DNA of 33,565 nucleotides from Microcaldota archaeon (lineage in GTDB: Archaea > Micrarchaeota > Micrarchaeia > Micrarchaeales > Micrarchaeaceae): the NCBI GenBank assembly GCA_021790455.1, contig JAJYDY010000007.1, positions 1 through 33,565 of the forward strand, written 5' to 3'. The translations under genes and the position numbers were made by a program. The notes under the pieces were generated by a model. That model did not search any database, had not been told where the DNA came from, and saw only the letters and a list, made by a program, of their open reading frames with translations. Shown here one piece after another: positions 3,258 to 6,367 of the stretch. The first letter of the stretch is position 1. Every line of letters starts with the position of its first letter.

Positions 3258-3285
3258 TATTTAAAGCTTTCTGTTTTAAATATAC
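3258..3285 (+). promoter_or_regulatory. TATA region for the TBP gene
   Basis: Two AT boxes lie in tandem: TATTTAAAG at about 3259 and TTTTAAATATAC at about 3274-3285. The second would place the transcription start near 3305, giving a leader of about 40 bases before the ATG at 3343. Confidence 0.5.
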
Positions 3286-3342
3286 TCTATCGGTGATTGA
3301 ACGGCGAAAAAGGCAAGCAAGGCTAAGACAACCGCGAAAGTC

Positions 3343-3708
3343 ATGAAAGGCGGGGGAGACTCAATTCCTATTCCTTCGATAAAGATACAGAACATAGTTG
3401 TCAGCGCTGATCTGCACGCAGTGATAGATCTCTATGCGCTGTCAAAGGAGGTAAAGGCTGTGGACTACGAGCCAGAGCAGTTCCCTGGGGCCATATTCAA
3501 GATAGCAGAGCCAAAGGCCGTGATAATCCTCTTCAAGAACGGGAAGATGATATGCACAGGCACTAACACGGAGGCAAATATAAGGAGAGTGCTAGAGTAC
3601 GCATCAAAGGTAATCTCAAAATATGTAATTGAGCTGACGCCGGTGCTGACAGCCGCGCAACAAAAGGCAGCAGCTGCGCAAAAAGCTGCAGCTCAGTCGA
3701 AGAAATAA
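3343..3708 (+). CDS. tbp: TATA-binding protein with a single TBP repeat
   Basis: TBP recruits TFB and RNA polymerase by bending the TATA box. Archaeal TBPs are normally about 180-200 residues, a saddle of two repeats. This protein is 121 residues and holds only one. Residues 10-95 carry the complete fold: IKIQNIVVSADL, then YEPEQFPGAIFKI, then the EPKAVIILFKNGKMICTG strand-turn, then the closing helix. Both intercalating phenylalanines of a repeat (in EQFPG and ILF) are present. Motif spelling resembles the second, C-terminal repeat of normal TBPs. The tail is Ala/Gln/Lys-rich (AAQKAAAQSKK). The frame stays open upstream of the ATG for 14 Lys/Ala-rich codons without a standard start, then meets TGA at 3298, so no first repeat is hidden upstream. 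A homodimer would restore the saddle; that is inference. Confidence 0.88.
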   Translation: MKGGGDSIPIPSIKIQNIVVSADLHAVIDLYALSKEVKAVDYEPEQFPGAIFKIAEPKAVIILFKNGKMICTGTNTEANIRRVLEYASKVISKYVIELTPVLTAAQQKAAAAQKAAAQSKK

Positions 3709-3838: not shown

Positions 3839-6367
3839 ATGGACAATGGGAAACACTATTTTGCGATAATGTTCACAGTGATAGCATTATTCGGACTGAC
3901 GGGAAGCACAATCGCGGCTATAAACACCGTAAACACAAGTGTGATATCTGCTGTGACTACAATGGTGCCAACCTCCATCCCAGCCAGCTCAGTGGTTATG
4001 CCCCAGCCAACTAATATCTTCCAGCAGATAATAAACTTCTTTGAAGGCCTATTCAGCATTGGGGGGCATACTTCACCGCCTCCTTGCGTTGACTGCAACA
4101 CGGTAACGACAATACCTTATACTACTACAGTATGTCCTCCGGGGACAGCAGGCTGCCCGATTCGCGTAACCACAACAACTTCTGTTTCGACTACAACTAT
4201 ATCATATGGGACATCGTGTGTTGCAGCGCTTGGCATCCTCTGCGAAAGCCCAGTGCTTACAAACGGAACGCTTTCATTGACCTTCGGCCAGAATACAGGG
4301 GCGACCATGTACTATCCCAAGCTCGCCTGCTCCTCAACATCGTTGGTTCCATCAACATTCTACCCGATCTTCGGGAATAACCCGTTGCAGAGCGGTTCCG
4401 CGATATACACAAACATACCGTGCCAACTAAGTCCTGCGGAAAACACAACTGCAGGGGTCAATGCATATCTCTGGCTCAGCTACCAAACAGCTCCAAGTGG
4501 ACCAACAGTCTATATGCTCGCAGCTAAAATGACACTAACTGGTTCTGGTGGAGTCAACGGTACAGGAGGCGGCAACTATTCATACACGGGAGTTTACAAT
4601 GGTACGAACCTGGCGCTTACATGGGTGCCAAACCACACCATCGAGAACTTATCTGATGCGAGGCTCGTCGGCGTGATAACAAGCTTCCAGACAGCAAACC
4701 CGTACTACTCCTGCCTGAACGGAGTGAGCATGAACGTATGGAGCGCACCAAACGAGTACCCTGGAGTGCTTGTAGTCCACAACGGACTGCAGGGACATCA
4801 GTGCGCCTACATCACTGCGACATTCGTTCCACTCGGATCAGGGGGTGGAAACAAGTTCCCTAACCCGTACAATTATACATATTCAGGAAGCTATGAAGGG
4901 ACTGGAGAGACATTCTCATGGGTGCCAAACCACACCATCGAGAACGACAGCGGAGCAGCATTGGTCGGAACAATTGCGAACTTCTACACAGCAAACCCGT
5001 ACTACTCCTGCCTGAACGGCGAGAGCATAAATGTATGGACCGATCCGAACTACCCGAATGAGTATGTGATACACAACGGACTGCAGGGACCGCAGTGCAC
5101 CTACATCACCGAAGTCTTCAGTTCAGGCAGCGCCCGCGGGTCCACGCCAATAATGACTATTACAGTAACCCACCCGCAGAATATGCCACAAGGTACGAAT
5201 TTCGAAACGAATATGAGCTGGACAAACCTCACTTCCTACAGCGCTGTCTACAACTGCAACTTTATCTTCCAGACAACCGGTGGCATGGTCGTGTCAAACT
5301 ACACCGAATATTGTGGACTCGCCGATCCTGAACTAGGATGGAACTATAGCGGGGTGAGAATGCAGCCTGGCGGCAACTACTACGTAAAGGCGATAGGCGG
5401 CAACAGGACAACAGGCAGATACGTAAGCATGAGCAATATGGGATACGTGGCGGTGCCATCTAGCAGTGGCACACCGCTATCTGCACGAATGAACCTGACG
5501 ATTAGGCAAACAGGCACGCAGTCATATCCAGTTATCTTGGACATGATGGGAATTGCAACAGGCGGAAGCGGGCCGTACACATACACATATCAAGTAAGGA
5601 ACATGTCGCAGCTCTACTACCACACGCTATACACGTCGCCACAGACAACCTCAAGCGAATGGACATACGGCTTCTACAACAATACAGTAGCACCAAGCCT
5701 TGTACCGGGCACTGCCTATTCTGCAGTGGTTACAGTCATGGATTCACAGGGTCACACTGCATCTTCGCAGCCGCAATCATTTACAATACCAGGAAACCTA
5801 CCTCCAAACCCACACAATAACACATACACTGGTTCGTGGGAAGGTTCGCAGGTAACTTCGCCTAGCACGATTCAGTGGGTGCCAAACCACACCATCGAGA
5901 ACGACAGCGGTGCCGTTCTGGTTGGCACACTTATGAACTTCTACACAGCAAACCCATCCTACTCCTGCCTGAACGGCGAGAGCATAAATGTATGGACCGA
6001 TCCGAACTACCCGAATGAGTATGTGATACACAACGGACTGCAGGGACCGCAGTGCGCCTACATAACGCTTGAGATGCAGTACATAACCAACAACCAGATT
6101 GTCTATGTGGGCCAAAATGTGACCTCATCGCCGTATACTGTAGAACTGACCGACCTTGCGCAGGCAAGCAACCAGACTGGCGGAATGGCACCGGCATCCA
6201 TATCGATCTACTACAACGGCGCACTGGCAAACATGAGCCAGATAAATCCGAACAGCGTTGGAACTTTCAAGGTGCATGGAGAGACGTTGTACGTCTTCGT
6301 TCACAACACCTTCGCAGGGCTATATGCATACCAGAGATGGGCAAACATGTCGATTACATTCCCGTAG
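3839..6367 (+). CDS. Large secreted surface protein with three repeated domains
   Basis: This 842-residue protein is probably exported to the cell surface. Residues 1-28 form a signal peptide or anchor (core FAIMFTVIALFGLTGSTIAA). A short amphipathic stretch (IINFFEGLFSIGG) and a Thr-rich linker (about 84-125) follow. Three copies of a domain of about 85 residues occupy roughly 246-330, 345-430 and 660-746. Each carries WVPNHTIEN, YSCLNG and a second cysteine in QCxYIT, so one disulfide per copy is likely. Between copies 2 and 3 lie two Ig/PKD-like segments. The C-terminal 95 residues end YQRWANMSITFP, similar to the end of the next gene. Asn-X-Ser/Thr sequons are abundant, suggesting N-glycosylation. 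An S-layer, adhesin or host-contact role is possible; no enzyme motif is visible. Confidence 0.8.
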   Translation: MDNGKHYFAIMFTVIALFGLTGSTIAAINTVNTSVISAVTTMVPTSIPASSVVMPQPTNIFQQIINFFEGLFSIGGHTSPPPCVDCNTVTTIPYTTTVCPPGTAGCPIRVTTTTSVSTTTISYGTSCVAALGILCESPVLTNGTLSLTFGQNTGATMYYPKLACSSTSLVPSTFYPIFGNNPLQSGSAIYTNIPCQLSPAENTTAGVNAYLWLSYQTAPSGPTVYMLAAKMTLTGSGGVNGTGGGNYSYTGVYNGTNLALTWVPNHTIENLSDARLVGVITSFQTANPYYSCLNGVSMNVWSAPNEYPGVLVVHNGLQGHQCAYITATFVPLGSGGGNKFPNPYNYTYSGSYEGTGETFSWVPNHTIENDSGAALVGTIANFYTANPYYSCLNGESINVWTDPNYPNEYVIHNGLQGPQCTYITEVFSSGSARGSTPIMTITVTHPQNMPQGTNFETNMSWTNLTSYSAVYNCNFIFQTTGGMVVSNYTEYCGLADPELGWNYSGVRMQPGGNYYVKAIGGNRTTGRYVSMSNMGYVAVPSSSGTPLSARMNLTIRQTGTQSYPVILDMMGIATGGSGPYTYTYQVRNMSQLYYHTLYTSPQTTSSEWTYGFYNNTVAPSLVPGTAYSAVVTVMDSQGHTASSQPQSFTIPGNLPPNPHNNTYTGSWEGSQVTSPSTIQWVPNHTIENDSGAVLVGTLMNFYTANPSYSCLNGESINVWTDPNYPNEYVIHNGLQGPQCAYITLEMQYITNNQIVYVGQNVTSSPYTVELTDLAQASNQTGGMAPASISIYYNGALANMSQINPNSVGTFKVHGETLYVFVHNTFAGLYAYQRWANMSITFP
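4574..4828 (+). repeat. Surface-protein repeat copy 1
   Basis: First copy of the domain of about 85 residues (NYSYTGVYNG to ITATF). It shares WVPNHTIEN, ANPYYSCLNG and HNGLQG with the other copies but is the most diverged, and it lacks the NYPNEY segment. Confidence 0.8.
4871..5119 (+). repeat. Surface-protein repeat copy 2
   Basis: Second copy (NYTYSGSYEG to ITEVF). Bases 5002-5098 are identical to 5959-6055 in copy 3 over 97 bases, pointing to recent duplication or gene conversion within the gene. Confidence 0.85.
5816..6077 (+). repeat. Surface-protein repeat copy 3
   Basis: Third copy (NNTYTGSWEG to ITLEM), separated from copy 2 by two Ig/PKD-like segments and directly followed by the C-terminal domain. 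Its core is nucleotide-identical to copy 2. Confidence 0.85.

Follow-up and report, generated by a model that had tools for sequence, protein, structure and literature searches.

The 33,565-nt stretch of DNA analysed here (the window) is an ordinary piece of archaeal chromosome, with housekeeping genes such as those for SRP54 and for the two PolD subunits. On its forward strand, where all parts of the gene and its leader described below lie, positions 3343–3708 form a stop-free frame of 121 amino acids that begins with ATG and that a sequence-only reading had described as one complete TBP repeat with both intercalating phenylalanines and a Lys/Ala tail. Translation and profile searches bear out this description: the protein matches the Pfam TBP family (PF00352) over profile positions 2–85 of 85 (84 bits against a curated cut-off of 22.9 bits, E = 6.5e-24), the lobe occupies residues 13–94 (3379–3624), and an Ala/Lys tail follows it (3625–3705), poorly conserved and with a predicted strand and helix. 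The stirrup YEPEQFPG (3466–3489), almost invariant in 30 relatives, supplies the first DNA-intercalating phenylalanine, F47, and the strand LFKNGKMICTG (3529–3561) supplies the second, F64. Both phenylalanines are invariant in the alignment of the 30 relatives, and N17, V19 and T72 are invariant or nearly so; FKNGKxICTG is a micrarchaeal signature, and the named relatives belong to Candidatus Micrarchaeota or Micrarchaeaceae. With these motifs intact, the protein is a putative TATA-binding and TATA-bending factor that would recruit TFB, for which the acidic residues of the stirrup are the expected contact.

Structure prediction also places the protein among TBPs. An AlphaFold2 model, built from the 30-sequence alignment, has a mean pLDDT of 91.9, and each of the 44 PDB matches found by Foldseek at E < 0.001 is a TBP or a TBP complex. 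The model superposes on solved TBP lobes mostly within 0.8–1.2 Å over about 83 residues, with a target TM score near 0.45 because half of the saddle is missing in a one-lobed protein, and in phmmer searches of the PDB archaeal and eukaryotic TBPs align with the sequence through either of their lobes. By homology, lobe fold, DNA-contact residues and paired phenylalanines it is thus a member of PF00352, and it is a free-standing protein with one TBP lobe and no more: its 135-residue frame holds a single match, and no second TBP lobe was found anywhere on the contig (C22). Directly downstream (3839–6367) lies a Thr-rich frame of 842 amino acids that has the look of a secreted protein and is without a Pfam match.

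The gene, which we call TBP-A, has a counterpart. When the window's genome (G000; 782,120 bases in 45 contigs, 84% complete) was searched in all six frames, exactly two TBP matches came up, each one-lobed, in frames of 115 and 135 amino acids. The second gene, TBP-B, lies on another contig (C16:32590–32835, minus strand) and encodes a 111-residue protein; all DNA-contact and stirrup motifs are kept in both. The search for a further TBP that the sequence-only reading had proposed therefore returned a one-lobed gene and, in this 84% complete genome, no two-lobed one. It is extremely improbable that a normal two-lobed TBP was lost or split in assembly. The missing sequence and the 45 contigs leave formal room for such a gene, but orthologous one-lobed genes (59–90% identity) occur in about 40 independent assemblies and single-contig genomes lack a two-lobed gene, which contradicts this explanation for the family. 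The related worry that an assembly error had removed the first repeat is ruled out by the same single-contig genomes and the same orthologues, which include genes from complete genomes. The genome also holds one TFB core gene, with two cyclin repeats. In the window's family (f1, Micrarchaeaceae) and its sister family (f2), TFB carries a basic extension of 60–105 residues N-terminal to the zinc ribbon (L005 1186–2358, minus strand; also L298, L291, L292 and L293), which is absent from examples of f5, f6 and f11; an AT-hook-like RGRP motif lies inside it in G000 and G051.

Comparison of leaders alters the likely extent of TBP-A. The in-frame TGA that had been placed 45 bases before the ATG is present (3298–3300, its first base 45 bases before position 3343), but the ATG itself is not conserved in orthologues and is probably not the start. 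Directly after the TGA comes an ACG at 3301. The window reads GGTGATTGA-ACG-GCG and the TBP-B leader reads GGTGTTCGA-ATG-GCA, the ACG occupying the place of the ATG of TBP-B. A Shine–Dalgarno-like GGTG (3292–3295) plus 5 nt precedes the ACG, and a probable TATA box, TATTTAAA (3258–3265), lies about 40 nt 5′ of it, with the same motif at a matching distance upstream in many TBP-A orthologues. Of the 17 A genes from f1 whole-genome loci, 12, that of A_DKE included, have ACG at the start position, as do about 22 of the 41 A loci overall; at several, an in-frame stop directly precedes the ACG and no ATG follows before the lobe. Across 892 kb of f1 DNA, GGTG plus 5–7 nt stands before 25% of the ATGs close to ORF starts but before 2% of those within ORFs; of the 21 GGTG–ACG cases close to ORF starts, 12 are the TBP-A gene itself. 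Because of the conserved ACG at the ATG position of TBP-B and these GGTG statistics, we consider that TBP-A probably runs from ACG 3301 to 3708, with a product of about 135 amino acids, and that initiation there is probably weak, which would keep TBP-A below TBP-B. An ACG start after GGTG is essentially confined to the TBP-A genes of the family (window 3301–3303; L036, L037, L042, L046, L076 and L183), and TBP-B genes and the A genes of f2 start with ATG or TTG. In one A orthologue (L177/L052, in G076), the segment from the upstream stop to the lobe is free of ATG, GTG and TTG, and GCG occupies the start position.

We surveyed 295 genomes of the phylum. A lobe count alone does not tell a pair of genes from a single two-lobed gene; frame lengths and inspected sequences made that distinction. 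At least two lobe matches were present in 30 of the 32 f1 genomes that are at least 90% complete, and no native two-lobed TBP was found among the sequence-inspected members of those 30. Four single-contig f1 genomes, among them the complete genomes ARM-1 (AP024486.1) and A_DKE (Micrarchaeum, NZ_CP060530.1), each contain exactly two separated one-lobed genes. Among incomplete f1 genomes, five show A alone and five B alone, as is expected from gaps; this is no proof of co-dependence. In f2, a single match was found in 11 of the 19 genomes at least 90% complete, and the single-contig genome G020 (771,545 bases) has exactly one one-lobed TBP gene, which indicates that the B type works alone. Genomes of f2 with two matches carry a B type and an A orthologue, except G100, which has a tandem, and G191, whose second match is another B-type copy. 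Since A orthologues thus occur in f2 too, the A/B duplication probably took place in the ancestor of the order, and A was then lost from several f2 genera. A is absent from these genera without visible change in B, which is much alike in genomes with and without A.

Other TBP arrangements turned up in the survey. Of the f1 genomes inspected, only G068 (88% complete) has a two-lobed TBP besides its A and B: a canonical gene without the micrarchaeal signature (L006; C43:2733–3251), present on an 8.4-kb contig through either horizontal transfer or contamination. Genomes of f11 have three one-lobed genes each (L139, L140 and L141 in G054; L142 in G061), some with identical lobes. A one-lobed TBP within the otherwise two-lobed family f6 (L149, in G125) is either a secondary lobe loss or a retained form, and a weak third match in G076 (C3:8789–9031, 40.9 bits) is a diverged lobe.

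The sequence-only reading had likened the retained motifs to those of the second repeat and took this as a sign that the first had been lost. Alignment to two-repeat TBPs did not bear this out: the mean identity of one-lobed micrarchaeal TBPs to canonical N lobes equals that to C lobes (for example, 42.8% and 43.1%). In a tree of 102 lobes and 82 columns, in which the 90 micrarchaeal lobes are the only ones from DPANN, a branch with 99/98 support separates all micrarchaeal lobes from both the N and the C lobes of other archaea. Approximately unbiased (AU) tests placed the micrarchaeal lobes within neither the N nor the C clade and made no choice between them. Given the equal identities, a clade outside both lobes and the undecided AU test, loss of the first repeat is therefore unsupported, as is survival of the window lobe as a C lobe by descent. 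Within the micrarchaeal clade, TBP-A forms a 100/100 group on a long stem (0.52), sister to B plus f2, and the window gene is the derived copy. Two genes with one lobe each do occur within the same genomes, as in a split TBP, but one does not descend from the N lobe and the other from the C lobe: A and B are sisters within one micrarchaeal clade, and a clean split by descent is rejected. The same branch and the same AU result would also suit a relic that predates the lobe duplication rather than a reduced two-lobed TBP. We regard this as rather unlikely: with 82 columns the tree cannot root, it covers Micrarchaeota as its only DPANN phylum, and by profile the majority of micrarchaeal lobes lean slightly towards N.

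What stands of the likeness to the second repeat is a modest difference between the two paralogues. Scored as C minus N bits against profiles of canonical lobes, on which true C lobes reach +40 and true N lobes −38, TBP-A lies at about 0 and B-type lobes at −10 to −12, a shift of about 10 bits, where true lobes differ by about 75. The shift arises mainly from the two columns most diagnostic of N versus C, which are C-type in A (Q in 30 of 40, V in 33 of 40) and N-type in B (E in 28 of 34, A in all 34); other diagnostic columns lack the pattern. Two-lobe NCBIfam models likewise place A mostly on their C half, and the B of the window's genome on their N half in 6 of 10. What might point to N-like and C-like roles is a small, consistent shift at two of several diagnostic columns, which counts as one event on the tree; the C-ward displacement of A relative to B is real but small, and looks secondary. 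It lends weak-to-moderate support to a putative A:B saddle with A on the TFB side.

Where a lineage has a single one-lobed TBP, a homodimeric saddle is all but required, and assembly of the saddle as a dimer of one-lobed TBPs is nearly forced. Dimerisation as proposed from sequence was therefore a sensible expectation; a homodimer of TBP-A as the default was not, because a second one-lobed TBP is present, A is the derived copy and B stands alone elsewhere. Which dimer forms, B:B, A:B or A:A, we infer from sequence alone. On balance we favour a model in which the window gene is one of two one-lobed TBPs, with B:B as the general factor and A:B as an asymmetric saddle. Two lobes would associate through the free edges of their central strands to form the usual saddle on the TATA box, and a single TFB would then recognise that saddle, with direction set by TFB and the BRE. 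B:B would serve generally, as the B type stands alone in sister genera. TBP-A would most likely pair with B and take the C-lobe, TFB-facing place, so that the A:B saddle would regain an N/C-type asymmetry, and its amount would probably be held down by the conserved ACG start.

In support of this model, the window's genome has only two TBP matches, both one-lobed, and one TFB core gene; 30 of the 32 f1 genomes at least 90% complete retain the pair, as do the four single-contig ones; single-match f2 genomes point to a B type that works by itself; and the A:B asymmetry appears in diagnostic columns, profiles and NCBIfam placement. The start codon of TBP-A and the tandem TBPs described below, in which nature has joined the same lobes covalently, fit it too. 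Against it count the smallness of the N/C shift, a single tree event with which other diagnostic columns disagree, the similarity of B with or without A, such that B need not depend on A, and the five A-only and five B-only incomplete f1 genomes. The retention of all DNA-contact and stirrup residues in A, together with the f2 genera that lack A and leave B visibly unchanged, would suit two homodimers, B:B as the general TBP and A:A as an alternative one that serves promoters of its own, much like the multiple TBPs of haloarchaea. This is possible but less probable, as f1 nearly always keeps both genes and the C-like shift of A against an N-like B suggests partnership. Rapid evolution of A (stem, 0.52) and its weak-looking ACG start might instead mark a damping regulator that, as A:B or A:A on TATA DNA, recruits TFB poorly; the intact TFB-facing stirrup YEPEQFPG makes this quite unlikely.

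Elsewhere in the phylum, the TBPs of families f3, f6, f7, f12 and f20 are two-lobed and about 185–220 amino acids long. Both lobes bear the micrarchaeal FKNGK signature, and their N–C identity is 61–81% (52% in f12), compared with 42–54% in other archaea. These proteins look like tandem re-fusions of a one-lobed gene; alternatively, gene conversion may have acted on an old two-lobed gene, with a lobe lost afterwards in other lineages. An AU test of a single origin for all fusions (P = 0.43 and 0.59) chose neither side. In G100 (f2), an in-frame tandem of two lobes (L192, on C39) is cut by the contig end, and its exact in-frame repeat (96 of 96 bases identical) points to a fusion of very recent date or to an artefact of assembly. 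Models of upstream motifs have a palindromic look in micrarchaea (0.72–0.82, versus 0.24 for a haloarchaeal plasmid control), with overlapping bootstrap ranges, a poorly matched control and divergent promoters that mix orientations; promoter symmetry as a sign of a symmetric saddle is a lead only. The models from stretches of G020, G056 and G114 (L214–L273) have this look (AAGnnTTATAAnnCTT-like), with the same caveats. For the phylum as a whole, we offer as a possibility, with somewhat less assurance than for the A:B model, that much of it replaced or never had a two-lobed TBP and that dimers of one-lobed TBPs start transcription, made asymmetric in f1 by A:B pairing with an ACG-throttled paralogue and in other families by tandem fusion.

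TBP marks gene starts in archaea and eukaryotes. In the standard account it is a saddle of two lobes, and the asymmetry within it helps to orient the promoter complex; its proposed ancestral state is a dimer of a single TBP domain. Lineages that live with one-lobed TBPs are a natural experiment on whether such asymmetry is necessary, on how TFB and the BRE alone set direction, and on the proposed ancestral dimer. With homomeric, paralogous-pair and re-fused forms, one phylum would display together the stages proposed for TBP evolution; A_DKE and ARM-1 are relevant complete genomes with the paired form.

The literature already mentions one-lobed TBPs in archaea. The abstract of Brindefalk et al. 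2013 reportedly speaks of some archaea with monopartite TBPs. Ravarani et al. 2020 (PMC7221094) give single-lobe archaeal TBPs one sentence, which names no lineage or mechanism and calls them 'consistent with' Brindefalk et al. 2013 (NAR 41:2832). In the literature searched we found nothing on one-lobed TBPs in Micrarchaeota, and the paired A and B genes, sole-TBP lineages, re-fused forms and ACG start are unreported there. As far as that sentence describes them, TBP-A resembles these proteins in being one lobe as a stand-alone archaeal protein. The N-terminal domain of RNase HIII is likewise a single TBP-type domain, but fused to an enzyme (PMC4132731), and Foldseek matches it (3ASM) at E = 0.36 versus about 1e-7 for TBP. 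The two-lobed TBPs of f3, f6, f7, f12 and f20 are like their one-lobed relatives, with lobes mostly 60–80% identical and a signature common to both, and differ from the window gene in having two lobes in one chain, probably by secondary fusion. With canonical archaeal TBPs (Pyrococcus, 1AIS and 1PCZ; M. jannaschii, 2Z8U; Sulfolobus, 1MP9), TBP-A shares the lobe fold, the stirrup YEPEQFPG, both phenylalanines and the Asn and Thr DNA-contact positions, but its chain carries a single lobe rather than a pair (TMt about 0.45) and, at 85 bits, it falls below the curated NCBIfam TBP cut-offs of 181–347.
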